A stretch of DNA of 36,324 nt from the NCBI GenBank assembly GCA_023544645.1, contig JAMJFO010000035.1, positions 1 through 36,324 of the forward strand, read 5' to 3'. Below the pieces are notes generated by a model, which worked only from the letters and a program-made list of their open reading frames with translations, had not been told where the DNA came from and made no database searches. This document shows positions 7,033 through 20,781 of this stretch, one piece after another (the stretch's first letter is position 1; every line of letters begins with the position of its first letter). This DNA is from Desulfobulbaceae bacterium (lineage in GTDB: Bacteria > Desulfobacterota > Desulfobulbia > Desulfobulbales > Desulfobulbaceae). Position numbers and translations under genes: made by a program.

Positions 7033-8289
7033 TTAAAAATAGTGCCGGTATTCCAGGCTGAACTGAACCGGCAGGGATCCCAGCTCGGAACGGATCGTAT
7101 CTTCTCCGGGCTTTGATCCTCCCGGAAAGACTGCCGTTACCGCCAGTTCGGATTCATCGGAGGTGGAATAGACCGCGTTGAAAGAAACAGAATAGGAATG
7201 ATCCGACCAGTTGCGCAGAAAGAGCATTTCCCCGACCAGGAGCGGGGAAAGCTGGTAGCTGACATCAAAGGCCGAATAATGGCGGCCGAGATATCCCGGA
7301 CCGGTAGCGCCCCGCGTTTTCTCTGCCAGCGCCTCGGCTATGGAATCCTCGCCATACCCGTTGTACATCTGCTCAAGGCGCAGGTTCAGGCTGCTTGGAA
7401 AACGGTGTTCGAAGCTGATGGTCGCCATCAGGCCGCTGTCCCGGTCATCCGCCCAGGTGTTGGCATAATGGCCTTCCGTCCGCACCCCCAGCCACTGAAA
7501 GAGCTCCCCCTGCAGGGAAAACCCGGTAACCATTGATTCCCGGACAATTCCGCTCAACAGTCCCCATTCAAACTCTCCGGCTGTGTGCGTAAAACGGGCC
7601 AGCAGCGAGCTGCGATGCCAGTCAGGGCTGTTGCTCCAGCCGCTGTCTGCATCCGCCTGCTCCTCATATCCGAGCACCCCGATGACCGACAGCTGGGACA
7701 GGGCGGCAATCCTTCTTTCATAGCGCAAAGCGTCGACACCGGGTTTATACACCCGGTAGAAGGTGTTCGGGGAAAATGGCGCGAAGAAATCATTGGGGGT
7801 GAAATAAAAGGTAACCGTGGTGGAAACCGGCTGCCTGCCGACGGCCAGTTCATTTTTCCCGTCGATGTACTTCAGGTAGCCGGAGTCAAGGACCATGGCG
7901 GCCTGGGTGTTCGTGCTGTCATGCTGCCGGCTGTAGAGGAGGCCGCTTCGCTGCACATCGGACTTCGCTCCATCTGTTTGAGTGGGCACAAAAACCGGCG
8001 TCGAACGCACATTCTCCAGCACATTAAGCCTGACACCAAATTGTTCGCCGAGGGAGGCCTCGGCCAGCAGCCGAAGATCTCCGTACCAGGACGCCTCGCT
8101 GCCCTCGTCATACAGAAAAGGAGCCTCGGGATATTTTGCCAGCCCTGCGCCGGCAGCAAACGAGCCGGTAACGTTGATATCGTGTCGACTGCCGGTATGC
8201 GCATAAAAACCCCAGACCGGAAACGGCCAGGTCAGCGCGGCCATAAAAATGATTTGCGGGAGAACGCGATGAAGCGGATTGCCTTTCAT
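7033..8289 (-). CDS. Outer-membrane beta-barrel protein of the Lol-like ABC cassette
   Basis: This 418-residue protein has a signal peptide (hydrophobic stretch about residues 10-27, ending near VWGFYA). The body alternates polar and aromatic residues (LNLRLEQMYNGYGED, FDVSYQLSPLLVGEM) and the last residues are RHYF. A C-terminal phenylalanine is the usual recognition signal for outer-membrane barrel assembly. I do not recognise a named family. Its ATG overlaps the stop of the ATPase gene by four bases, so it is made with the transporter and probably works with it, for example as an export channel or receptor for the transported lipid or lipoprotein (inference). A porin of another family or an alginate-export-like barrel is an alternative. 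Confidence 0.7.
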   Translation of the reverse strand: MKGNPLHRVLPQIIFMAALTWPFPVWGFYAHTGSRHDINVTGSFAAGAGLAKYPEAPFLYDEGSEASWYGDLRLLAEASLGEQFGVRLNVLENVRSTPVFVPTQTDGAKSDVQRSGLLYSRQHDSTNTQAAMVLDSGYLKYIDGKNELAVGRQPVSTTVTFYFTPNDFFAPFSPNTFYRVYKPGVDALRYERRIAALSQLSVIGVLGYEEQADADSGWSNSPDWHRSSLLARFTHTAGEFEWGLLSGIVRESMVTGFSLQGELFQWLGVRTEGHYANTWADDRDSGLMATISFEHRFPSSLNLRLEQMYNGYGEDSIAEALAEKTRGATGPGYLGRHYSAFDVSYQLSPLLVGEMLFLRNWSDHSYSVSFNAVYSTSDESELAVTAVFPGGSKPGEDTIRSELGSLPVQFSLEYRHYF

Positions 8290-8984
8290 GCTGCCTGATT
8301 ATCATCCTCAAGACGACCGTCGCGCAGTTTCACCAGCCTTCTTGCCCTGTCCATGACCAGCCGGTCATGGGTGGAGAACAGGAAGGTTACCCCTTTCCGG
8401 GCATTGAGGTCTTCCATCAGGTCCAGGATGGTGTTTGCCGCCTCCAGGTCGACGTTGGCCGTGGGCTCGTCGGCGAGGACGATGGCCGGATCAGACACCA
8501 CTGCCCGCGCAATGGCGATGCGCTGCTGCTGTCCGCCGGACAGCTCGTCCGGCCGGCGGTTGACATACCCGGCCATACCCACCTCTTCCAGGACAGCCAT
8601 GACCCGGTCCCGGCGCTCCTGCACCGGCACATTCTGCAAGGCAAGGACAAACTCGGCATTTTCGTATGCCGTCAGCACCGGCACCAGGTTGTAGGCCTGA
8701 AAGACAAAACCGACCCGGTCCCGGCGCAGGCGCGACAACTCTCCCCTGCCAAGCCTGGTCAGGTCCCGGCCTTCCAGATACACTGTGCCGGATGTAGGCA
8801 TATCCAGCGCCCCGATCATATTGAGAATGGTAGTCTTCCCGGAACCGGAAGGACCGCTGAGGGCGCTGAATTCACCTGGCCTGATCAGCAGATCAAGGTT
8901 GTCCACCGCCCTGACCTCCACCCTGCCTTGATAATACACGCGACTGACCCGGTCAAGCCGGGCAATATACTCTGCATCCATCAT
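8286..8984 (-). CDS. LolD/MacB-type ABC transporter ATP-binding protein
   Basis: The 232-residue ATPase has Walker A GPSGSGKTT, Q-loop FVFQAYNLVPVLTAYEN, signature LSGGQQQRIAIARA, Walker B IVLADEPTANVD and the switch histidine in FLFSTHDR. These are hallmarks of the LolD/MacB/FtsE group that powers FtsX-type permeases. Such systems move lipoproteins or other molecules out of or within the envelope by mechanotransmission rather than through a transmembrane pore. It lies downstream of two FtsX-type permeases, across a gap occupied by an inverted repeat, and overlaps the barrel gene. The substrate is unknown. Confidence 0.9.
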   Translation of the reverse strand: MMDAEYIARLDRVSRVYYQGRVEVRAVDNLDLLIRPGEFSALSGPSGSGKTTILNMIGALDMPTSGTVYLEGRDLTRLGRGELSRLRRDRVGFVFQAYNLVPVLTAYENAEFVLALQNVPVQERRDRVMAVLEEVGMAGYVNRRPDELSGGQQQRIAIARAVVSDPAIVLADEPTANVDLEAANTILDLMEDLNARKGVTFLFSTHDRLVMDRARRLVKLRDGRLEDDNQAA

Positions 8985-8997
8985 CTCATATCTCTTT

Positions 8998-9216
8998 GAC
9001 TCAACTTTCTGACTTATGTTAACTTACTGTAAAGAAAAAAAATGTATGAATATTCAACTCGTTTATTGATCAGGCTGTAGGCTGAAGGCTATTAGGCTAC
9101 TTGTGAAAACCGCCCCTAAAAGCCTATAGCCTTAACAGCTAATACCTATTCCAACATAATTAATATATAAATACTTCATGATTTCAGACAAATAGATCAA
9201 CTCAGAAAGTTGAGTC
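8998..9216. repeat. Perfect 15-bp inverted repeat bracketing the permease-ATPase gap
   Basis: GACTCAACTTTCTGA at 8998-9012 is the exact reverse complement of 9202-9216. The right arm encodes the last four residues (DSTF) and the TGA stop of the permease; the left arm lies just before the ATPase ribosome-binding region. Between them, 9071-9141 holds several AGGCT/AGCCT units that can pair with one another, and no gene is visible. The whole gap looks like a small inserted element or a large stem-loop inside the operon. Confidence 0.6.
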
Positions 9217-10449
9217 TTTGAGGGTATCCACCGGCAGCACTCTGCCGGCTCGTATTGCCGGATAAACACTGGCCGCCATGGTGAGCAGAAACACCGTGAT
9301 CAGGATAAAAAAAGCGCTCTCCCTGAACAGCCGGATCTTCACCACCGGATCGACCAGGACTCCGCCGGCGCTGTAATCTCGGCCCACATAACTGCTCATA
9401 TCAATGCCGGTTTCACTCATGTAGATGAACCAGGGGGCAGTCAGCACGATTCCCATGACAATGCCCAGACAGCCGAGCCAGAACGATTCGACAAGGACCA
9501 TCCGGACGACCTGGCCGGGAGCCATGCCCACAGCCATCATGATACCGAATTCCCTGGACCGTTCCAGAACACTCATCTGCATGGTATTCATTATGCCGGC
9601 GGCGATTACCAGCCCGACCAGCAGCTGCATCAAATAATTAAACAGCCGGTCAACGGCGATCAGTCCGGACAGGTCCGCCTGGGTCTGGCGCCAGGTCAGC
9701 ACTTCGACATTCCCGGCCCCGGTCAACGAGCCGTTGATCTCCCGGCGCACCCTGTTCACCGCCCGCAGATCATCGACATGCACGGCCACAAAAGAGACGC
9801 CGCCCGTTCCATATTTCAGGGTCTGCTGCATCCTGGCCAGGGGAAGCAGCACAATGGAGGAGTCAGCGTCATGGTCTCCTGTTTTGAACATGCCGGAAAT
9901 GCGGAGCAGCTCGCTGGTCAGTTCCCCGTCCTTATCGGTCACGGTGACGATGAGTTTTTTACCCAGGCGGAGATTGAGCTTCTCCGCCATCTCAACTCCG
10001 ATGACCGCGCCGCGGCCGTCGACAGTGTCGAACAGCTCCCCTTCAACGATAGAGCGCAGGAAAAAGTTATGGGCCGGTTTTTCCAGCACCGGATCAATCC
10101 CCATGAACATTCCGCCGACACTCTTGGCCCCGGCAGCAAACATGGCCTGGCCCATTATCCGCGGATAGGCCCCCTCCACACTGTCGATCATCAGGGCTTT
10201 TTTCCGAACCCGGTCCATATCTGGCAGCCAGCGGGAGAGGCTCGGTCGTTCATTATACCCTTCCGCGGCAACCGATATATGGCCAAGCCCCATGACGGCG
10301 CTGGTGTTGATCATGCTGGTATAGGAATAATCGCCGGTGCCGGTGAACGTCACTGCCAGAAAAATTCCAAAGGCGATGGAAAACGACGTGATAAGCGTGC
10401 GCCGTTTGTTACGGGACAGGGTCCTCAATGCCATGACATGTAGTTTCAT
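9202..10449 (-). CDS. FtsX/MacB-family ABC transporter permease (second of pair)
   Basis: The 415-residue protein has the FtsX/LolC-E layout. One membrane segment lies near residues 18-38 (LITSFSIAFGIFLAVTFTG), followed by a large periplasmic MacB-PCD-like domain and three C-terminal segments (about 270-290, 315-345, 375-395). The motif ERSREFGIMMAVGM before the third segment is the conserved cytoplasmic coupling region that contacts the ATPase. Start ATG 10449 has AAGGA five bases upstream. It is probably a heterodimer partner of the permease encoded just upstream. The stop codon lies inside a 15-bp inverted repeat. Confidence 0.88.
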   Translation of the reverse strand: MKLHVMALRTLSRNKRRTLITSFSIAFGIFLAVTFTGTGDYSYTSMINTSAVMGLGHISVAAEGYNERPSLSRWLPDMDRVRKKALMIDSVEGAYPRIMGQAMFAAGAKSVGGMFMGIDPVLEKPAHNFFLRSIVEGELFDTVDGRGAVIGVEMAEKLNLRLGKKLIVTVTDKDGELTSELLRISGMFKTGDHDADSSIVLLPLARMQQTLKYGTGGVSFVAVHVDDLRAVNRVRREINGSLTGAGNVEVLTWRQTQADLSGLIAVDRLFNYLMQLLVGLVIAAGIMNTMQMSVLERSREFGIMMAVGMAPGQVVRMVLVESFWLGCLGIVMGIVLTAPWFIYMSETGIDMSSYVGRDYSAGGVLVDPVVKIRLFRESAFFILITVFLLTMAASVYPAIRAGRVLPVDTLKDSTF

Positions 10450-10465
10450 CGCCGTCCTTCCTAGG

Positions 10466-10565
10466 TAGTGTCCGTCCAGAAACGGTCTTTTTGCCCGATC
10501 TCCCGGAGTCTCGTTCCTCGCTTACCTGACCTCGAACAAAAATCCTCGTTTCTGGATGGACACTA
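10466..10565. repeat. 100-bp inverted-repeat element between the two permease genes
   Basis: TAGTGTCCGTCCAGAAACG at 10466-10484 pairs with 10547-10565 with one mismatch, and the pairing continues imperfectly through a run of T/A. The element ends exactly at the TAG stop codon of the upstream permease, whose three bases are the element's last three. No coding content is seen. It is a different family from the elements near 6.1, 12.6 and 25.1 kb. Confidence 0.75.
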
Positions 10566-11786
10566 GATATGGTGAATAGCTTTTACCGGACTGATCACTG
10601 CCGCCTTCCAGGCTGGATACAGCACCGCCAGCAGGGCAACTATATAAAGAAACACCACCGGCATGACAACGCTGCCGGCGGTGACCCGGCAGTACCACTG
10701 GGGTTCAAAGGCAATGCCCGCAATGGTGGATGATTCAGGCAGCAGGAAAGAAAAGTCAATGGGATGGCGCTCAAAGTAATATGACAGCGGCACGCCCAGC
10801 GCCAGGGAAAGAACCGCAGCCATGGTGACCAGCAGCAGGGTCTCGGAAAATATCAGTCCGAACAGTCTGCAACCGGAAAAACCCACGGCCTTCATGACCC
10901 CGAAAACGGGTATTCGTTCAAAAACACCCATGAGCATGGCATTCATGGTGAGCATCCCGACAGCCGCATAGATGATCAGGAGCATGATAATCATCGAGAC
11001 GTCGGAGAGGTCCAGCAGCCTGGCCAGCGTTGGCTGCAGCTCGCGCCAGCTGTTTACCTCCAGATCGGGAACAAGCTCTGCTATTTTTTTTGTTGCCTGC
11101 TCAAGCAAGACACCATTATCCGCGCGTTTCATAACAATTTCATGGACGCCTTCCGGCAGGGCGAAAAACTCGCGGAAATCGCGGTCACCCATGATCAGTC
11201 CGCCACGGTCGATCCCCTGCCCGACTGACTTGAGCACCCCCTGCACGGTAAAAAGATCGTTGGCCATGGAGCCGTCGGCAGCCTGGGCCACCAGAACGAT
11301 TTCGCTGCCCGGCCGGACATCAAGAATCCGGGCCAGCTGATATCCCAGCACGACCTGCTTGGCATCGGTTGCCGATAACCAGCTGCCGGAAAAAACATGA
11401 TTCTGCAGCAGCACAACCTGCTCCTCGGCCCGGGGATCAATGCCGCGGATGGAGACACCGGTGGAATTTTCATGGGCGGCCGCCAGACCGCCGCCAAGAA
11501 GCCGCGGCGAGGCGATCAACCCACTGTTTTCCGCCTGCCTGATTACCCTGCGATAATCAGGGATGACCGTATACAGGTCAGGATCGTCCCGGTATCCTTG
11601 CGCGTGGATCTGCATCTCCCCCATTTCCATGGACACGGCATTGGTTTCCATGGCTCCCATCCAGCCCTCAAAAAGGCCGGCATAAAAAATCATGATGGCG
11701 CCGGCAAAAGCCATGGCCAACACGGTCACCCAGGTCCGATGGCGATAGCGGAGAACATTCTTCAAGGCAAGGCTCAGCAGCTGCAT
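10563..11786 (-). CDS. FtsX/MacB-family ABC transporter permease (first of pair)
   Basis: The 407-residue protein has an N-terminal membrane segment (about residues 20-40), a periplasmic domain, and three C-terminal segments (about 262-290, 310-335, 370-395). The coupling motif FERIPVFGVMKAVGF corresponds to ERSREFGIMMAVGM in its partner. LolC/LolE-type heterodimers have this arrangement. It follows the LolA-like gene by five bases and precedes the second permease across a repeat element that supplies its TAG stop codon. Substrate unknown; lipoprotein or lipid transport is inferred from the neighbours. Confidence 0.88.
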   Translation of the reverse strand: MQLLSLALKNVLRYRHRTWVTVLAMAFAGAIMIFYAGLFEGWMGAMETNAVSMEMGEMQIHAQGYRDDPDLYTVIPDYRRVIRQAENSGLIASPRLLGGGLAAAHENSTGVSIRGIDPRAEEQVVLLQNHVFSGSWLSATDAKQVVLGYQLARILDVRPGSEIVLVAQAADGSMANDLFTVQGVLKSVGQGIDRGGLIMGDRDFREFFALPEGVHEIVMKRADNGVLLEQATKKIAELVPDLEVNSWRELQPTLARLLDLSDVSMIIMLLIIYAAVGMLTMNAMLMGVFERIPVFGVMKAVGFSGCRLFGLIFSETLLLVTMAAVLSLALGVPLSYYFERHPIDFSFLLPESSTIAGIAFEPQWYCRVTAGSVVMPVVFLYIVALLAVLYPAWKAAVISPVKAIHHI

Positions 11787-11791
11787 GGTTT

Positions 11792-12574
11792 CTACATCCC
11801 GCGCAGCTGCATGATCGAAAACAGGGAATCGGGCAGGCCGATATCAAAATCGACCTGCAGGTAGATCAACTCGGTGTACTCGTCGGGCTTATCAGCCGGA
11901 ACCATATGGAGGACGACGGGAATCAACCGGCCGCCCATCTCCTTGACATCACTGAACGTCAGCGTCCTGGCAAGGATCATGTCCTCGTCATAGTACAGAG
12001 AATCGACCGGGAGATAATCATCGGCCCGGACGGTTATGACGATCTTGCCCCAGACCACCGGCGCATCGTGATGGGGCAGCAGGGCGAACTCTATGATGTC
12101 CTCCCCGTCCCGGATTCCTTCAAAGGTGATCTCCGGTTCATAATCATCGGACAGGCGTGATTCCTTGACCAGGTCGTCATTGGTGAAATGGCTGCCCATC
12201 CACGAGCCCATCATCATGCCCGAGGTCAAGCGGATGACCCGGTCCGTTTTGGGAAGATAGGTATACATGGTGTTTCCGTTTTTCAGACTGACGGTTCCTT
12301 TCTCTTTTAAGGGCAGTACAATGCGGACCAGCGACATGTCCCGCCCCTTGGACCAGCTGTCCATGATCATGGTCCTGGTGTAATGCTCGGTTTTCACCTC
12401 CATCTGCAGCCGGGCTTTGGAGGAGGAAGATCGCCAGAGATCATCTATTTTTTCCAGGACTTCCCTGGCACGGAGCCTGCCGTTGTCCTCACCGGCGGAA
12501 ACCGGGTCCATCACGGCGCAATGCAGCGCGATAAAAAAACAGACCGACAGCGCCATTGATCGCTTGGTCACCAT
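11792..12574 (-). CDS. LolA-like outer-membrane lipoprotein-sorting protein
   Basis: The 260-residue protein has a signal peptide (about residues 5-27, ending DPVSAG). Its beta-rich body resembles the LolA/LolB-like fold of the outer-membrane lipoprotein-sorting group, with characteristic stretches such as LKNGNTMYTYLPKTDRVIRL and MMGSWMGSHFTNDDLV. Proteins of this group bind lipid or acyl chains in the periplasm. It begins the cassette (ATG 12574, preceded by GGAGGGAGG) and is followed at five bases by an FtsX-type permease, so it is probably the carrier that accepts cargo from the inner-membrane complex. It is not the housekeeping LolA as judged by sequence features and by its paired permeases (inference). 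Confidence 0.85.
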   Translation of the reverse strand: MVTKRSMALSVCFFIALHCAVMDPVSAGEDNGRLRAREVLEKIDDLWRSSSSKARLQMEVKTEHYTRTMIMDSWSKGRDMSLVRIVLPLKEKGTVSLKNGNTMYTYLPKTDRVIRLTSGMMMGSWMGSHFTNDDLVKESRLSDDYEPEITFEGIRDGEDIIEFALLPHHDAPVVWGKIVITVRADDYLPVDSLYYDEDMILARTLTFSDVKEMGGRLIPVVLHMVPADKPDEYTELIYLQVDFDIGLPDSLFSIMQLRGM

Positions 12575-13241: not shown

Positions 13242-16200
13242 TCAGTGCTTTGTCATTTCCGGTCCGTCCAGAACTTCCCTTACCCTGACAGCCAGCTCTT
13301 TTTTGGAAAAAGGTTTCTGGATAAAATTTACGTTTTTTTCCAGCACCCCTCGATGGGCAATCACATTGGACGTATAGCCGGACATAAACAAAACTCTGAG
13401 GCCGGGATAAAAGGATGTGAGGCGTTCGGCCAACTCGCGGCCGTTCATTTCCGGCATCACGACATCGGTGACCAGCAGATCAATTTCGCCCTCATGCTTT
13501 TCGGCCAGTTCCACGGCTTCACCCGGCGAGGAGGTGGCAATTACCGTATAGCCCAGACTTTCGAGCATCCTTTTGCCAAGGGCTAATATGGCAACCTCGT
13601 CCTCAACCAGCAGTATGGTTTCGCCGCGGCTCAAGGGTATTTCTCCTGGAGCCTCCCTCTGTTCCTCCACAGCCGTTCCTTTATTCCTCGGCAGGTAGAT
13701 CTTGAAGGTCGTCCCTTTGTCCGGTTCACTGTAAATATTGATAAACCCCTGGTTCTGCTTGATGATTCCATAGACCGTGGCCAGTCCCAGTCCGGTTCCC
13801 TGTCCCGTGCCCTTGGTGGAGAAAAACGGCTCAAAAACACGCTCCTGCGTTTCCGGTTCCATACCGCGACCATCATCGCTAACTGCGAGCATGACATACT
13901 CCCCGGGTACAAATCCGGCGTGGTCGGCGCAGTAGGATTCGTCGAAGCGGGTATTTTTCGTTTCAATGGTGACTTTCCCCACCCCCTCGATGGCATCCCT
14001 GGCATTGACGCAGAGATTGGCCATAACCTGGTCGAGCTGGCTCGGATCGATCTTTACCAGCCACAAATGTTCATCGGGACGCCAGGCAAGATCAATATCT
14101 TCGCCGATCAGCCGCCGGAGCATCTTCAGCATATTCTCCACAGACGCATTCAAATCGAGAATCTTGGGCGCTACGGTCTGTTTCCTGGCAAACGCCAGCA
14201 GTTGCCGGGTAATATCGGCCGCACGTCTTGCGGCAAACATAACCTGTTTGATATCGGCATGCAGTTGGTCACCGGGCCCAACCTTGTCCATCATTATATC
14301 AGCATACCCGATTATGACGCTGAGCATGTTGTTAAAATCATGCGCCACTCCGCCCGCCAGCCGGCCGATGGACTCCATTTTCTGCGCCTGGGCAAACTGC
14401 GCCTGCAACAGCTGATGCGATTTTTCCTTTTCAATTCTCTCGGTGATATCCCGCGCAAAAACCAGGGCCCCGTCCCGGCCTTCATATACAAGGGGCACCG
14501 CGGAAACCTCGACATCGACAGGAGAGCCGTCCATTTTCACAAAAACTTCTTCGCTGGGCAAAACCGCGGTCTTGTCCCCGGTCAGCAGCCGCATCCTGTC
14601 GGAGATTTTTTCGTGGAAATCGGGATGGACCCGGTCAAGAACCGGTGTTCCCAATATCTCCCTGTCCCCTTGCGCCCCGAACAGATCCACCGTTGATTTA
14701 TTCAAATAGACAAAACAGCCGTCAATCACTACAAAGATGGCGTCCGGCGAGTTTTCCACCAGCATGCGGAACCGCTTTTCACTTTCCCGCAAAGCGGTCT
14801 CGGCGGCTTTCCGATCGCTTTCGTCCCGCACGGTCGATATCATCATGTTCTGTTCATAAAGCGGGATATTCTTCGCCGCCACAATTCTTTTGCGGCCATC
14901 CTTACCGGTGATCTCCACATCTTCCCAAATCATCCGTTCAGGATCACGGGACGCGACATCCCGGATTACCCGGGTTCGGATTTGCTCACGGTATGCGGGA
15001 TCGGGATAGACTTTTTCAAAGAATGTCGCCACATCGGTCAATTCACTTGCCGGCCATCCGTAAATTTCTTCAAAACGTTTGTTGACATACATTGTACGGC
15101 TATCATCAATGGAATTGACTGACAGACCGATGGGCAGATTATCAAGGATTATCTGGATAAACTGGTTTTGGCGGCGCAGATCCATGGTCTTCAGCACCAC
15201 CTGTTTGCGCAATGACCAGGACCAGAGAAAAAATGCCAGCAGGAGCAGGAGGAGGGGGAGAAAAATAATCGCCATGTAGCGGATAAAAGATACAAACCCG
15301 GCGGATGGCTCTTCATACACCCCCAGCCATTTTTCATAGATGCGCCGGTATTCGCCGGTTTCGTCGATCACCTTCAGGCCTTCGCCAAGCTGGGCCAGCA
15401 GAGCTTTGTGATTTTGCGGGACAGCATAGCAGTACTCCGGAGAAAGGAAAGGGCGCCGTCCGACACGCAGGTTTTCCCACCCATGTTTGCTTATCCAGTA
15501 CAAGGCGGTCAGCCGGGCGACAAAGGCGCAATCGTACTCGCCTGCCGCCAGCGCCCGCAGCGCCTCTTCCTGGGAATCGACAACGGAAACTGCATCGCCC
15601 AAGCCCTTTTCCACCAGAAACTCGTGCATGATGTCACCCTGCTGCACGACAATACGCATGCCCGTCAATTCATCGACTCCGGTCGGGAAGGCGGCTTCAC
15701 CTTTACGCATGACCGCAACGTAATGGGTCACCGTGTGGGATGGGGTGAAATCGAATTGCAAATCACGTTCTGCCGAGTAGAACATGCCCTGGACAGCGTC
15801 GATCCGCCCCTCGGCCAGGGCCTGGCGTATTTCCGTCCAGGGACCGAGACGGATCTCGACATCCAGGTCCATTTCATGGGCAATGGCCTTTGTGAGCTCG
15901 ACATTGAATCCGGCGGGGAGGCCATCCTCGTCCAGGTATTCAAAAGGAGGATAGTTGTGGTCGCCGCCGATGATAATGCGGCGATGGGAAGGCAGCTGCA
16001 GGGCCGCGAACCATTTGGCGTGAAGATAACGATAGGTTCCGTCAGCAATCACCAAGGCGAGGCCTTCATTTAACAGGGCCAGAGTTTCACGGTCCCCTTC
16101 CCTGACGGCAAAGCAGAAATCCTGACGAAATCCCTCCACGGGATTGTTGATAACCAGCAGGTTGGTAAGATTCGATTGCTGGATAAGGCGCAGGGCCACC

Positions 16201-16799
16201 AGCCGCTGGACAACCACGGCGTCGTGAAGGCCGTCGTTCAGTTCCCGCAGGGCGGCCTCGAAAGTGGCCGTAGTATGTATTTTGATGCCGCGTTCTTCCC
16301 GCCGGAGAAACTCTTCGGCGTTGTCCCCTTTCATAACCGCGACCTGCCGGCCCCGGAGATCATCAAGATTTTGAATATCGGTGGTGGTTTTCCGGACGAC
16401 GATGGCGCCGTGGAGCGACATGTAGGGAAAGGTGAAATCAAATAAAGGCTCCCGCTCCGGTGTGCGCCCCACCAGCGGCAGGGCCTGGACTTTGCCCCCT
16501 TGCAGCCATTTCTTGACCTCTGCCCAGGGACCGGTGCGAAAAGTGACGTCACGTCCCATGGCGGCGAGCGCCGCGCGCAGTAATTCGACTGAAAAACCTG
16601 TGACCCGCCCTTCCTCATCGACAATGCTAAATGGCGGATAATCAATCTCGGAAGCGGAGCTGATAACTGATCTTGATTGCAGTAGTTCTTTATCTTCGGC
16701 GTGAACGGAAACCCCGCAAAGACATAGCACGATCATGGCAAATAGCACAGCCGTGATCATGGCATGCCCACTGATCAGGCGTTTACCGTTGATAGACAT
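13242..16799 (-). CDS. BvgS-like hybrid sensor kinase with two periplasmic solute-binding domains
   Basis: The 1185-residue protein has a signal/anchor segment (about 13-34) and two bacterial solute-binding family 3 domains (about 45-270 with DYPPFSIVDEEGRVTGF, about 275-495 with NYPPFEYLDEDGLPAGF). A membrane segment (about 507-528) and two PAS domains (about 545-665, 675-790) follow. The kinase core has its phospho-histidine in GGVAHDFNN near residue 820, the ATP domain has DDGRGM and GTGLGL, and the C-terminal receiver carries Asp near 1112. This is the BvgS/EvgS arrangement but without the final HPt domain, so phosphate must leave through a separate protein. Ligands for such flytrap domains are often amino acids or small acids; none can be named. 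ATG 16799 is preferred over the open frame to 16859 because GGGAG lies five bases upstream. No response regulator gene adjoins it. Confidence 0.92.
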   Translation of the reverse strand: MSINGKRLISGHAMITAVLFAMIVLCLCGVSVHAEDKELLQSRSVISSASEIDYPPFSIVDEEGRVTGFSVELLRAALAAMGRDVTFRTGPWAEVKKWLQGGKVQALPLVGRTPEREPLFDFTFPYMSLHGAIVVRKTTTDIQNLDDLRGRQVAVMKGDNAEEFLRREERGIKIHTTATFEAALRELNDGLHDAVVVQRLVALRLIQQSNLTNLLVINNPVEGFRQDFCFAVREGDRETLALLNEGLALVIADGTYRYLHAKWFAALQLPSHRRIIIGGDHNYPPFEYLDEDGLPAGFNVELTKAIAHEMDLDVEIRLGPWTEIRQALAEGRIDAVQGMFYSAERDLQFDFTPSHTVTHYVAVMRKGEAAFPTGVDELTGMRIVVQQGDIMHEFLVEKGLGDAVSVVDSQEEALRALAAGEYDCAFVARLTALYWISKHGWENLRVGRRPFLSPEYCYAVPQNHKALLAQLGEGLKVIDETGEYRRIYEKWLGVYEEPSAGFVSFIRYMAIIFLPLLLLLLAFFLWSWSLRKQVVLKTMDLRRQNQFIQIILDNLPIGLSVNSIDDSRTMYVNKRFEEIYGWPASELTDVATFFEKVYPDPAYREQIRTRVIRDVASRDPERMIWEDVEITGKDGRKRIVAAKNIPLYEQNMMISTVRDESDRKAAETALRESEKRFRMLVENSPDAIFVVIDGCFVYLNKSTVDLFGAQGDREILGTPVLDRVHPDFHEKISDRMRLLTGDKTAVLPSEEVFVKMDGSPVDVEVSAVPLVYEGRDGALVFARDITERIEKEKSHQLLQAQFAQAQKMESIGRLAGGVAHDFNNMLSVIIGYADIMMDKVGPGDQLHADIKQVMFAARRAADITRQLLAFARKQTVAPKILDLNASVENMLKMLRRLIGEDIDLAWRPDEHLWLVKIDPSQLDQVMANLCVNARDAIEGVGKVTIETKNTRFDESYCADHAGFVPGEYVMLAVSDDGRGMEPETQERVFEPFFSTKGTGQGTGLGLATVYGIIKQNQGFINIYSEPDKGTTFKIYLPRNKGTAVEEQREAPGEIPLSRGETILLVEDEVAILALGKRMLESLGYTVIATSSPGEAVELAEKHEGEIDLLVTDVVMPEMNGRELAERLTSFYPGLRVLFMSGYTSNVIAHRGVLEKNVNFIQKPFSKKELAVRVREVLDGPEMTKH

Positions 16800-17132
16800 A
16801 TTTACTCCCTTGTCTCCGGCAGGCAAGATGTCGAGTTCCGGCATCAATGCCCGGTGCATACACTGAACCGCTTTCTATCTGCCTATGTCTGATCAACCTC
16901 TGTGCCTTGATCCTGGATCCGTGAGCATCCGCTCCAGGGGCGGCGGGGTGAGCCGCGCTAAAGCTTCAGGAAATCTGCAACAATAGTCAAGACAAGCACC
17001 CATGCAGGCAACCCCTGCATAACTTTCACGGCATCAGGTTGATGCATGTCATAAACCCTGTTTACAGGATATCCAACAATAAGCAGTAGATCAAATAATA
17101 ATTTTATATCATGCAGGTTGTTCGCACCCGGA
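16800..17132. other. Non-coding gap between the kinase and ABC exporter genes
   Basis: No convincing gene is seen in these roughly 330 bases. ATGCAGG at 17002-17008 can pair with 17014-17020 around a five-base loop, about 110 bases after the exporter stop, but no T run follows. The gap must hold the promoter of the kinase gene; no clear -35/-10 pair stands out. Confidence 0.5.
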
Positions 17133-18944
17133 TCAGGGACCGGCCGGACCGTTTCCATCCTGATACAGGTCGAGCTGCACCAGGTTGTAATAGAGCCCCT
17201 GCAGCGCCATCAGCTCCCCATGCGTGCCCTGCTCTTTGATCCTGCCGCCGTCCATCACAATAATCCGGTCCGCCCGGCGGATGGTGGAGAGACGATGGGC
17301 GATGACCAGCGAAGTTCTGTCTTTGAAGCTTGCGGCAACAGCATGTTCCAGAATATTTTCACTTGCCGTGTCAATGGATGAAGTCGCCTCGTCCAGGACC
17401 AGCACCGCGGGATCCCGGCACAGCACCCTGGCAAAACAGAGCAGCTGTTTTTCGCCGGCTGACAGCTCCAGGCTGCCTTCACCGATCACTGTGTCCAGGC
17501 CATCCGGCAGGCCATTGACAAAAGCCTCCATGCCCGTGTCCCTGATGATCTCCATCACCTTTTCCCGGCCAATGCCTGTTTCCAGGACAATGTTTGCCAG
17601 GAGGGTGTCCGGCAGAATAAATACATCCTGCATGACCACCCCGATATTGCTGCGCAGGTCCTGGAGAGTAAACTCCCGGACATCGATCCCGTCTAAAAGA
17701 ACCCGCCCCTGCAACGGGTCGTAAAAGCGGACCAGCAGGTTGATCAACGTGCTTTTGCCCGCCCCGGTCGACCCGACAACGGCAACGGTTTCCCCCGGGG
17801 CAATATCCAGGGAGATGTCCCGGAGAATGACTTCATCCTTATTGTATCCGAAACTCACATTGGCAAAGGTGATCGATCCTTTGATTTGCTTCGGCTGTGC
17901 AGGTTTTTCCGGCGAACGGATCTGCATGGTGGTGTCAAGCAGGTCAAAGATGCGCTCGGCCGAAGCCAGGGCCGACTGGACGATTGAATATTTCTGGGAC
18001 AGTTCCCGCAGCGGCTGGAAGAACAGGCGCATATACGACAGGAAAGCGACAAATTCCCCCAGGGTCAGCTCCTGCCTGATGATCTCGCCGCCGCCGTACC
18101 AGACGATCATGGCAATGGCCATGGAGCTCATGAGCTCGGTGAGGGGCATGAATGTGCCGAAAAGCCTTATCTGGGCAAGGGTGCGCTGCACAAATTCTTG
18201 GCTCAGCGATACATATCTGCCGTAGTTGTCCGCCTGCCGGCCAAAGAGCTGGATGACCCTGAGGCCGAAGATCGACTCCTGGAGAAAACTGTTCAACCTG
18301 ACCAGCTGCTGCCGGATGGCGCGGAATTTCTGCCGCGCCAGGCGCGAGAATACGACCGTAATGGCTATGGCGGCGGGAACAAAAAGGGAGAGCAGCAGGG
18401 CAAGCCGGAAATTCATCAGAAAAAGAAGGACCAGGATGCCGGCCAGTTTTAAAAAATCATTGAACACAGTGACCAGAACCGATGTGAACATTTCGTGCAT
18501 GTTCTGAATATCGTTGGTCAGCCTGGTGACCAGGCGGCCCACCGGCTGCTTGTTGAAAAAGGCCAGGTCGAGCTTGAGCAGATGAGAAAAAAGATCCTGG
18601 CGGATGGTGTGCATGATGGACTGGCCTATGCGCTCCAGGATGACAATTTGCAGAAAACCGGTGAGGAAGACCACCACGACCAGGATGCCGTAAATCAACG
18701 CGATGACGCCCAGCCCATGGACCCGCTCTCCGACGCCCAGAGTGGTGGCGGTGATATAGTCGTCAATGCCCATCTGCATGAGACGGGGAAGGGCAAGAGT
18801 CGCCCCGGTTACCAGCAGCGACAGGACAACGGCCAGCAGGAGGCCGGGGGAATGGCTGGCGCTGTAGCCTAGAATTCTCTGCCAGATGCGGTGTTCCTTC
18901 TGCGTCCCGGACCACCCTTCTTCATCATATCCGAAATTGCGCAT
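17133..18944 (-). CDS. ABC exporter half-transporter, catalytic-site subunit of a predicted heterodimer
   Basis: This is a type IV (MsbA-like) half-transporter of about 603 residues: six membrane segments in the first 320 residues, then a nucleotide-binding domain with Walker A GSTGAGKST, Walker B VLVLDEATSSID and switch histidine VIAHRLS. The signature is ELSAGEKQLL instead of LSGGQ. Together with a partner lacking the catalytic glutamate (next gene upstream), this predicts one active and one degenerate ATP site, as in BmrCD and TM287/288. Substrate is unknown; drugs, lipids or peptides are possible. ATG 18944 lies 19 bases after the partner's stop; an in-frame ATG at 18992 would overlap it. 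Confidence 0.88.
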   Translation of the reverse strand: MRNFGYDEEGWSGTQKEHRIWQRILGYSASHSPGLLLAVVLSLLVTGATLALPRLMQMGIDDYITATTLGVGERVHGLGVIALIYGILVVVVFLTGFLQIVILERIGQSIMHTIRQDLFSHLLKLDLAFFNKQPVGRLVTRLTNDIQNMHEMFTSVLVTVFNDFLKLAGILVLLFLMNFRLALLLSLFVPAAIAITVVFSRLARQKFRAIRQQLVRLNSFLQESIFGLRVIQLFGRQADNYGRYVSLSQEFVQRTLAQIRLFGTFMPLTELMSSMAIAMIVWYGGGEIIRQELTLGEFVAFLSYMRLFFQPLRELSQKYSIVQSALASAERIFDLLDTTMQIRSPEKPAQPKQIKGSITFANVSFGYNKDEVILRDISLDIAPGETVAVVGSTGAGKSTLINLLVRFYDPLQGRVLLDGIDVREFTLQDLRSNIGVVMQDVFILPDTLLANIVLETGIGREKVMEIIRDTGMEAFVNGLPDGLDTVIGEGSLELSAGEKQLLCFARVLCRDPAVLVLDEATSSIDTASENILEHAVAASFKDRTSLVIAHRLSTIRRADRIIVMDGGRIKEQGTHGELMALQGLYYNLVQLDLYQDGNGPAGP

Positions 18945-18963
18945 TACACTCTTGCCATCAGTT

Positions 18964-20781
18964 CTATACCGGGCGTTGCCCGACCGGGACATGCCGGCCG
19001 ACCGATTCCCTGGCCTGCTTTTCGTTCATGGTCCGGTACAGCGAATTTCGTGCCAGCAGCTCGCCGTGAATGCCGCTGTCCTGCAGCCGGCCCTTTTCCA
19101 AAATAAAGATCCGGTCGGTTTCCGACAGCAGTTTGACCCGCTGGGAAACGATCAGGATCAGGTTTCTGTCCTGCCGGCTGACAATGGAACGAAGCACCTG
19201 GTGTTCGGTTTCCACATCCAGGGCGGCCAGGGCATCGTCGATGATAAGCACCGAGCGGTCGGTTATCAGCGCCCTTGCCAGCGCCAGGCGCTGGCGCTGG
19301 CCGCCGGACAGGGTTACGCCGCGTTCGCCGACGGTTGTACCATACCCTTTGGGGAAATCGAGGATTTCATTATGGATGGCCGCCTTTTGCGCCGCTGCTT
19401 CGATCTCGCCGGCAGTGGCGCCGGGTTTGCCATAGGCAATATTTTCAGCAATGGTGTCGGAAAACAGAATGGCTTCCTGGCCGACATAAGCGACACGGCT
19501 GCGCACTGTGTCCAGGGAGAGGGTGTTGACATCGCGGCTGCCGAAGAAAAGGCATCCATCCGGGACAGGATACAACCGGGCCAGCAGTTGGCACAGCGTT
19601 GATTTGCCACTGCCGGTGCGGCCGGTGATCCCGTAGATTCCACCGCGCAGCTCCATGGTCAGATCCTGCAGCGCCGGACGGCTTGATGACTGATAGGAAA
19701 AGGTAAGATTCTGCAGGCGAAACCAGGGATCGATCACTTCGGGTGAAGAGCTGTCCGCAAGGTCCTTCAGCCGGGGAATTGATGTGGTAAGCTCGTGGAT
19801 CCTCTGCAGGGAGGTGAGGCCCCGCTGGGTCAAGTTGGCCACCCAGCCGATGGCCATCATCGGCCAGACAAGCATGTAGAGATAAGTGATAAAGGCGACA
19901 AAATCACCAAGGGAAATCCGGCCCTCGATGGCGAACCGGCCGCCGTAATAGAGGACCAGCAGCATTCCCAGGTTGCCGACCAGGGCCGCCACCGGGAAAA
20001 GCAGGCCGTGAATCATGGCCACCCGGATGTTGCTCCGCACATATTTTTTCCCCAGCCTGTCCGACACCTTCCGCTGCATATTTTCCATGGTATAGGCCTT
20101 GACCAGGCGGATGGAAACCAGGGTGCTCCTGACGAACTCGGTCAGCAGGGAAAACTGCTCCTGGACTATGTTGAAGCGGTGATGAAGCCGGCCGGTCAAA
20201 AACAAGGTGCTGACGGCCAGAAACGGCATGGGCAGCAGGGCCAGCAGGGTCAGCTGCGGATTGATATAGGCCATGAAGCTGATGGCGGCCACGGACATAA
20301 CCAAGGCGTCGACAGCGGAAACAAGACCTATACCGCAGGCCATCTGGACGGCCTGCAGGTCATTGCTGATATGGGCCATGATGTCGCCGGAGGTTCGCTT
20401 CTCGAAAAAGGAGCGGTCCATCTTGAGGACATGGGAATAGATCCTGTTGCGGATATCACGCTCGAGCAAACGGGAGAAACCGATGATCAGATACCGCCAG
20501 CAAAAACGCAGCAACGCCGCCCCCACTGCCGCGGCCAGGATAAGTCCGCTGATCCCGGCCAGGGATTTGCCGGTGGCGCTGCCCGCGGCCAGAGAATCGA
20601 CCGCTGTTTTCAGCAGCCTGGGTATGATAAGCTGGAGAAAATCGACGCCGACAAGGGTGGCAAACCCCAGGGCCAGCCTCAAGGCATAGCGGGCAAAAAT
20701 TGGCCGGATCATGGCCAGAACCGGCCCCAGCCGGCGACGGGCAGCAGGTGCGTCGTCCACGGTTTTATGCAGCGTCTTCAA
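18964..20781 (-). CDS. ABC exporter half-transporter, degenerate-site subunit
   Basis: The 605-residue half-transporter has six membrane segments, Walker A GRTGSGKST and the canonical signature LSGGQRQRLALARAL. Walker B is VLIIDDALAALD, so aspartate replaces the catalytic glutamate, and the switch histidine position reads VSQRVKLL, with glutamine in place of histidine. These losses mark the non-hydrolysing site of heterodimeric exporters. Its TTG start at 20781 overlaps the stop of the J-domain gene (TTGA), implying coupled translation; AGGA lies about ten bases upstream. A later ATG at codon 24 would remove part of the N-terminal cytoplasmic region. Confidence 0.88.
   Translation of the reverse strand: MKTLHKTVDDAPAARRRLGPVLAMIRPIFARYALRLALGFATLVGVDFLQLIIPRLLKTAVDSLAAGSATGKSLAGISGLILAAAVGAALLRFCWRYLIIGFSRLLERDIRNRIYSHVLKMDRSFFEKRTSGDIMAHISNDLQAVQMACGIGLVSAVDALVMSVAAISFMAYINPQLTLLALLPMPFLAVSTLFLTGRLHHRFNIVQEQFSLLTEFVRSTLVSIRLVKAYTMENMQRKVSDRLGKKYVRSNIRVAMIHGLLFPVAALVGNLGMLLVLYYGGRFAIEGRISLGDFVAFITYLYMLVWPMMAIGWVANLTQRGLTSLQRIHELTTSIPRLKDLADSSSPEVIDPWFRLQNLTFSYQSSSRPALQDLTMELRGGIYGITGRTGSGKSTLCQLLARLYPVPDGCLFFGSRDVNTLSLDTVRSRVAYVGQEAILFSDTIAENIAYGKPGATAGEIEAAAQKAAIHNEILDFPKGYGTTVGERGVTLSGGQRQRLALARALITDRSVLIIDDALAALDVETEHQVLRSIVSRQDRNLILIVSQRVKLLSETDRIFILEKGRLQDSGIHGELLARNSLYRTMNEKQARESVGRHVPVGQRPV

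Follow-up and report, generated by a model that had tools for sequence, protein, structure and literature searches.

A conserved five-gene cassette combines a Lol-branch transporter and a LolA-fold carrier with a predicted outer-membrane barrel

Among the papers listed in our literature search, the closest counterpart of the gene cassette analyzed here is BBJ23-29 of Borrelia. It is a computational proposal in which a LolA-like carrier, a MacB/LolE-like ATP-binding cassette (ABC) transporter and a barrel are encoded in one cluster and are proposed to move a non-polar ligand (PMC13078400; here and below, statements on cited papers refer to excerpts of them). Our cassette lies in a 36,324-nucleotide stretch of DNA (the window) from a Desulfobulbaceae bacterium (contig JAMJFO010000035.1, assembly GCA_023544645.1), and its genes encode a LolA-fold carrier, two FtsX-type permeases (PermA and PermB), a LolD-like ATPase and a predicted outer-membrane barrel. 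The Borrelia cluster has an Omp85-type barrel, one permease gene and two tetratricopeptide repeat (TPR) proteins of its own (PMC13078400), whereas our cassette has two permeases, a barrel modeled in the OprD/AlgE class and no TPR gene; none of the five proteins has a TPR match in Pfam. Among the matches listed in a search of open-licence PMC papers (no preprints), no title or opening of an abstract gave an account of the five-gene set.

Other described systems share parts of this arrangement. In AmeABCD of Castellaniella defragrans, a resistance-nodulation-division (RND) pump is joined by a DUF1302 barrel and two periplasmic proteins, one of them a DUF1329 member of the LolA superfamily. Deletion of AmeABCD lowered monoterpene tolerance and increased Nile Red uptake/accumulation (PMC6394551), a phenotype that supports export of apolar compounds. 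AmeABCD resembles our cassette in combining an inner-membrane pump and a LolA-superfamily periplasmic protein with a dedicated barrel, but the cassette has an ABC pump and a PF17131 carrier. In Pseudomonas putida, a DUF1302 protein and a DUF1329 protein are needed on Tween 20 and are predicted to interact (PMC10866462). In E. coli, the products of apeL, apeM and apeN (LolA-like, an RND transporter and LolB-like, respectively) are proposed to carry an aryl-polyene lipid, and neither apeL nor apeN yielded a scarred deletion (PMC8253772). The likeness lies in a LolA-like carrier proposed for one lipid product; the RND pump and the LolB-like receptor in place of a barrel are features of the ape genes. 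Iron shortage strongly upregulates operons of Porphyromonas gingivalis and Prevotella intermedia in which genes for an MMPL transporter and an outer membrane lipoprotein-sorting protein accompany those for ABC ATP-binding proteins (PMC10434189).

Together, our results lead us to propose that the cassette is a self-contained envelope export line for an amphiphilic small-molecule or lipid cargo, ending in its own channel, with a probability of about 0.5.

Organization and conservation of the cassette

All five open reading frames are intact, uninterrupted and in the same direction on the minus strand (window 12574-7033). The features are, in order of transcription:

11792..12574, minus strand: LolA-fold periplasmic carrier, 260 residues (PF17131 LolA_like, Pfam E = 6e-45)
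10563..11786, minus strand: PermA, FtsX/LolC-E type permease, 407 residues (Pfam FtsX and structural model)
10466..10565, no strand assigned: inverted-repeat element with 19-nucleotide arms between the permease genes (repeat comparison within the genome)
9202..10449, minus strand: PermB, second FtsX/LolC-E type permease, 415 residues (Pfam MacB_PCD and FtsX)
8286..8984, minus strand: LolD-like ABC ATPase, 232 residues (Pfam ABC_tran E = 9e-35; TIGR02211 208 bits)
7033..8289, minus strand: predicted outer-membrane barrel, 418 residues, C-terminal Phe (model with 18 strands)

The genes are transcribed as carrier, PermA, PermB, ATPase and barrel, and the barrel start overlaps the ATPase stop by 4 nucleotides. 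All five had been named in the initial annotation, made from the window's sequence alone.

Named genomes were scanned with the carrier alignment (A1), and the best 80 of 430 relatives were kept; at least 5 kb was available downstream of the carrier in 60 of these loci and less in the other 20. All five genes occur in 54 of the 60. With the short loci included, the full set is present in 57/80, and the gene order is identical in every one of the 57. A start codon in the barrel frame falls between -30 and +40 nucleotides from the ATPase stop in 55 of these complete loci, with a 4-nucleotide overlap in 31. The conserved co-occurrence that the initial annotation had suggested searching for is therefore borne out. 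Its concern that the barrel might adjoin the other genes in this genome only does not apply, since the set recurs in several phyla: the record titles of the kept loci name Deltaproteobacteria and desulfo- groups, Gammaproteobacteria, Mariprofundus, Ghiorsea, Zetaproteobacteria, Nitrospinota and Nitrospirae. A Vibrio campbellii record also carries the set, and a Persicobacter plasmid (Bacteroidota; L197, 3089-8795) carries a complete one, in which a TetR regulator gene overlaps the carrier gene and precedes all five.

At the level of the phylum, 50 of the 395 genomes in the sample, our own among them, have a member of the barrel family. In a sample of 96 genomes, which also includes our own, 17 have a barrel match at E <= 0.001. 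Thirteen of the genomes have a close carrier (E < 1e-80) and 12 a close barrel (E < 1e-50), and all 12 are shared; the remaining close carrier (G071) is encoded not far from the edge of a contig of 6 kb. When 17 stretches were searched by tblastn with the five proteins, nine close loci had the full set in the same order (L021-L026 and L029-L031); the barrel frame contains one TGA in L030 and runs to the contig end in L031. L027 has no carrier gene, L028 has the ATPase and barrel only, L033 has a partial barrel only, and L032 has none of the five. Two sets are split, with the carrier on a different contig from the rest (G066) or about 13 kb away on the same contig (G078). Part of the 80 kept loci come from the same genomes as the barrel relatives of the 96-genome sample, and the two counts are not independent because several genomes are common to both.

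The set also extends to a divergent second tier, made up of 22 carriers whose identity is 35-41% (E = 1e-36 to 1e-52); 20 of their loci were examined. Ten of these keep the carrier, two permeases, the ATPase and a barrel that matches the profile of the cassette barrels (A3): L035, L036, L037, L136, L141, L142, L145, L146, L147 and L152. The L136 barrel is cut by a contig end and the L145 set is interrupted by inserted genes. Six second-tier barrels (alignment A8) are homologous to A3 (hhalign 99.4%, E = 1e-21; reversed control 1.1%). Four loci end at a contig edge (L135, L137, L138 and L149). L139 consists of the carrier and PermA only, and L148 of the carrier and one permease, the same genome's other permease, ATPase and barrel being on a different contig (L034).

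Nothing else appears to be fixed beside the set, because the largest non-cassette family, in a comparison that did not search for lipoprotein genes as such, occurs in only 11/80 loci. A fixed biosynthetic neighborhood is ruled out by the same count.

A few loci vary in their own right. Three cassettes contain three permease genes instead of two (L072, L083 and L085), and in two Nitrospirota and one Nitrospinota loci (L079, L094 and L126) a gene that looks TPR-like by eye lies between PermB and the ATPase. In L061, L064 and L070, the carrier gene is directly preceded by a MerR-like gene and by one that ends in a CxxCH motif and resembles, by eye, a multihaem cytochrome gene; each of these two families occurs in 6/80 loci.

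The transporter, the carrier and the housekeeping Lol pathway

The cassette shares with LolCDE-LolA(-LolB) a Type VII ABC permease fold, a LolD-like ATPase and a LolA-fold soluble carrier. The carrier has a signal-peptide-like N-terminus without a lipobox, both judged by eye, and its matches among solved structures include PDB 3buu (E = 4e-12) and 9tp6 (E = 9e-5). Since 9tp6 is a solved chain of the carrier family, others are evidently working on it. For the permease profiles (A4 and A5), the best match is the solved LolF (E = 1e-27 and 3e-30), followed by LolC, LolE and YtrF, with MacB weaker still. The PermA model (predicted local distance difference test score, pLDDT, 86; predicted template modeling score, pTM, 0.73) shows four long helices in addition to a periplasmic domain. 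Its best fit is to LolE (Z 30.2, root mean square deviation (rmsd) 4.9 over 370 residues), ahead of LolC (Z 26.9) and MacB (Z 18.8). The Type VII fold of Lol systems is thus predicted for PermA by its model and for PermB from sequence only.

The family thresholds of the Lol system tell a different story from its architecture. PermA and PermB score 125.5 and 91.4 bits against a LolC/LolE/LolF equivalog cut-off of 362 (TIGR02212), and the ATPase scores 207.8 bits against a LolD cut-off of 308 (TIGR02211). The carrier is not a PF03548 LolA, PF17131 being its sole Pfam match. The Hook of E. coli LolC recruits LolA and is essential (PMC10865981). We compared the corresponding segment by sequence length only, in an alignment with the LolF of the same genome: it has 19 residues in 70/70 PermA and 17 in 63/63 PermB sequences, compared with 22 in LolF. 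In a focused alignment of 10 PermA, 9 PermB and 6 second-tier permeases, every sequence has a gap of 5 residues here. As the broad and focused alignments differ, the shortening relative to LolCDE is 5 residues in PermB and, depending on the alignment, 3-5 residues in PermA. PermA keeps a hairpin with the conserved tip Q-A-A-D-G-S-M-A-N, in which G172 and A175 are invariant in 70 sequences. The shorter hairpin could be a functional substitute for the Hook.

The genome assembly (3.85 Mb, 153 contigs, 99.9% complete) has housekeeping Lol genes elsewhere. A separate LolCE on contig C55 scores 389 bits against the cut-off of 362 and is directly followed by an ATPase gene, and PF03548 LolA proteins are encoded on contigs C22 and C60. 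These loci rule out the cassette as the organism's own Lol system, support its earlier description as accessory to the housekeeping pathway, and remove the concern that it might be the sole lol locus. The initial annotation had also contrasted LolB of the housekeeping pathway with the barrel of the cassette. That contrast fails in this organism, because a family search found no PF03550 LolB in the assembly. LolB is also absent from many true Lol systems outside some proteobacteria.

Thus, the cassette is not a Lol system proper, but is related to, and distinct from, the lipoprotein-sorting machinery: it has a PF17131 carrier and its own barrel, and the failed cut-offs and the loss of Hook length argue against filing it as a Lol system. 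The label "Lol-like" holds for its architecture and not for its membership. The same two results do not argue against a Lol-like way of working as far as the periplasm.

One possible alternative is that the cassette serves as an accessory lipoprotein route, in which the transporter extracts a subset of lipoproteins and the barrel inserts or displays them, as a LolB substitute or a surface-display channel. The permeases and ATPase are indeed nearest to LolF, LolC, LolE and LolD, a different receptor is conceivable in a genome in which no PF03550 LolB was found, and lipoproteins are named as a possible BBJ23-29 ligand by the Borrelia authors (PMC13078400). However, a separate LolCE with its ATPase and two PF03548 LolA loci are already present, the Hook-length segment is missing in every PermA and PermB compared, and a porin/AlgE-like channel would seem unnecessary for insertion. 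We consider this route unlikely.

The predicted barrel and its RND-linked counterpart

The barrel was modeled from an alignment of 55 sequences (pLDDT 86, pTM 0.82), and a count of the listed elements gives 18 long strands. Its nearest folds are OccK9 (Z 23.8, rmsd 3.0) and AlgE (Z 22.9, rmsd 3.7), with many OprD/Occ porins tied. The barrel has no Pfam or NCBIfam match at E <= 0.1, so it belongs to no curated OprD/Occ or AlgE family and has only the predicted fold in common with them. Used as a profile against solved structures, the barrel alignment yielded chance matches only (best E 0.43). An Omp85-type barrel like that of Borrelia was judged the less likely class, as the 18-stranded model and its best matches differ; no Omp85, LptD or FadL chain is among the 50 fold matches listed, although such an absence is no proof in itself. 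The strands were oriented by polarity, with the more polar face set inward. This face is the more conserved of the two (0.62, compared with 0.50 for the opposite one), and among its residues are Arg, Asp and Glu that are invariant or nearly so; its polarity is no independent result, having served as the basis of the choice. The segment between strands 5 and 6 of the model (residues 154-184) has a mean conservation of 0.86, above that of either face of the strands. Counts of alternating hydrophobic stretches (17-21 in the barrels, 10-16 in controls) gave no clear separation and were not used.

A related pairing occurs in the same genome. The one other PF17131 match lies on contig C86, between an MMPL/RND protein and a 421-residue barrel-like protein without a Pfam match. 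The latter protein was found in 44 of the 96 sampled genomes. The same carrier adjoins the C86-type barrel in 29/30 loci, and part of an RND pump is visible within the 1.5-kb flanks in 18/30. The alignment of C86-type barrels (A6) is distantly homologous to that of the cassette barrels (hhalign 82%, E = 1e-5), with 0.1% for a reversed control, at most 1.9% for 15 column shuffles and 0.15% for a permease. Because a related barrel adjoins a PF17131 carrier in an RND operon, the carrier and barrel look like a module that is powered by ABC or RND pumps. The presence of both versions in one genome would allow the shared carrier-barrel step to be studied separately from the energy source.

It is plausible, though somewhat less likely than not, that a LolA-fold shuttle and a dedicated 18-stranded channel form a general export module with interchangeable engines, either Lol-type ABC or RND. 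Such a module would be a third envelope route of Gram-negative bacteria, a ferry ending at a channel and distinct from adaptor-TolC conduits and Lpt-type bridges. MacAB-TolC, which shares the permease superfamily with the cassette, works with an adaptor and a TolC conduit; the cassette has a soluble carrier, an 18-stranded channel according to the model, and a separate ATPase and permeases, and no MacA adaptor or TolC family member was found among its five proteins.

Two further carrier and pump neighborhoods were noted. On contig C22 of the same genome (L053), the neighbors of the PF03548 LolA gene are one for an MMPL-sized protein and others that look like fatty-acid synthesis genes, an arrangement reminiscent, by eye, of an aryl-polyene cluster. 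On a plasmid of Haliovirga abyssi (L199), genes annotated as TetR, MMPL transporter and outer membrane lipoprotein-sorting protein lie in a row, with a second MMPL/carrier pair nearby.

A model for cassette-driven export and its alternatives

We then infer a model for complex formation, direction, carrier docking and cargo. The Lol-branch transporter would use ATP to extract an amphiphilic, probably non-lipoprotein cargo from the inner membrane and load it onto the soluble LolA-fold carrier through the short conserved hairpin, which would take the place of the LolC/LolF Hook. The carrier would cross the periplasm and dock on its cognate 18-stranded OprD/AlgE-class barrel, and the barrel would hand the cargo on, either to the outer membrane or across it. 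The cargo, presumably made elsewhere in the cell, would most likely be an amphiphilic small molecule or lipid, and not the general lipoprotein set. Three lines of evidence favor such a cargo over a lipoprotein, namely the likeness of the barrel to porins, the existence of an RND-linked version and the relatives described in the literature.

The direction of transport leaves room for a second alternative, since it is not fixed by the sequences: the cassette may serve lipid homeostasis or retrieval, moving phospholipids or other envelope lipids between the membranes, possibly inward. LolA-fold carriers shield acyl chains, as is known for LolA, which would suit such a cargo. However, the permeases belong to the Lol/MacB export branch, in which we know of no importer, and the nearest solved folds of the barrel are solute channels and an exporter, so that retrieval appears distinctly improbable. 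Even less probable is that the barrel acts as an ordinary specific porin, with the operon as its one link to the other four genes, which would work without it: its predicted fold is close to OprD/Occ porins and gene proximity alone is no proof of a complex, but the ATPase stop and barrel start are close or overlapping in almost all complete loci, the carrier is found in 12/12 genomes with a close barrel, and the same carrier family is independently paired with a related barrel beside RND pumps.

Several observations weigh against the proposed export line. Six of the 60 loci with sufficient downstream sequence lack one or more genes (L061, L065, L070, L102, L115 and L123). Among these, L061 and L070 correspond to the split sets of G066 and G078, in which the missing genes are found at another place in the genome, and L102 has transposase-like genes (by eye) within PermA. 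No PermA was found in the 3.7, 0.9 and 2.9 kb downstream of the carrier in L064, L067 and L069, and the 2.4 kb available in L107 contain PermA without PermB. In one genome (G077), a barrel fragment of 110 residues (E = 5e-19) is accompanied by neither a close carrier nor another cassette gene nearby, and four second-tier carriers are solitary (L140, L143, L144 and L150). A relationship to the barrel of the apolar-compound exporters was tried and dropped: A3 and DUF1302 align at only 3-6% in hhalign, so homology is not demonstrated, and our genome has no DUF1302 match.

In favor of the export line is a fatty-acid/polyketide-like cluster of Enterobacter and E. coli, which encodes a PF17131-type carrier, one FtsX permease, a LolD-like ATPase and a 462-residue protein. 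It is found in E. coli next to ycdU (L203, 12088-16928) and on an Enterobacter bugandensis plasmid (L200 and L202); the carrier is assigned to PF17131 by Pfam in Enterobacter bugandensis and by profile and annotation in E. coli. DNA of this cluster part is present in 375 of 5426 complete E. coli genomes, in 369 of them over at least 80% of its length. The 462-residue E. coli protein, a barrel candidate, could not be linked to the cassette barrels (6%) or the C86-type barrels (0.5%), with an alignment of 3 sequences.

If soluble carriers do deliver to channels of their own, this would account for many unassigned genes annotated as "outer membrane lipoprotein-sorting protein", and would separate true lipoprotein sorting from look-alike export lines. 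It would also offer a strategy for finding the cargo, namely to isolate the carrier and identify its ligand.

The PermA-PermB gap (113 nucleotides) and the gap before the ATPase (217 nucleotides) are larger than in most relatives; in the 57 complete loci their medians are 8 and 10 nucleotides, as counted from the starts of the longest reading frames. The 100-nucleotide element in the first gap is dispersed, with 57 matches in the genome, itself and half-matches included, several of them at contig ends. It looks like a dispersed miniature repeat and is probably not part of the system.

In three second-tier genomes of one genus, the solitary LolA_like gene (L140, L143 and L150) adjoins apparent hslU/hslV genes, as judged by eye. 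Upstream of the cassette, window 17133-20781 contains two overlapping ABC half-exporter genes (ABC_membrane and ABC_tran). Comparable pairs lie near the cassette in L022, L023 and L024, and the pair recalls the ABC genes of the iron-regulated Bacteroidota operons (PMC10434189). Between this pair and the cassette, window 13242-16859 encodes a hybrid histidine kinase of 1205 residues with an SBP_bac_3 sensor, PAS and receiver domains.

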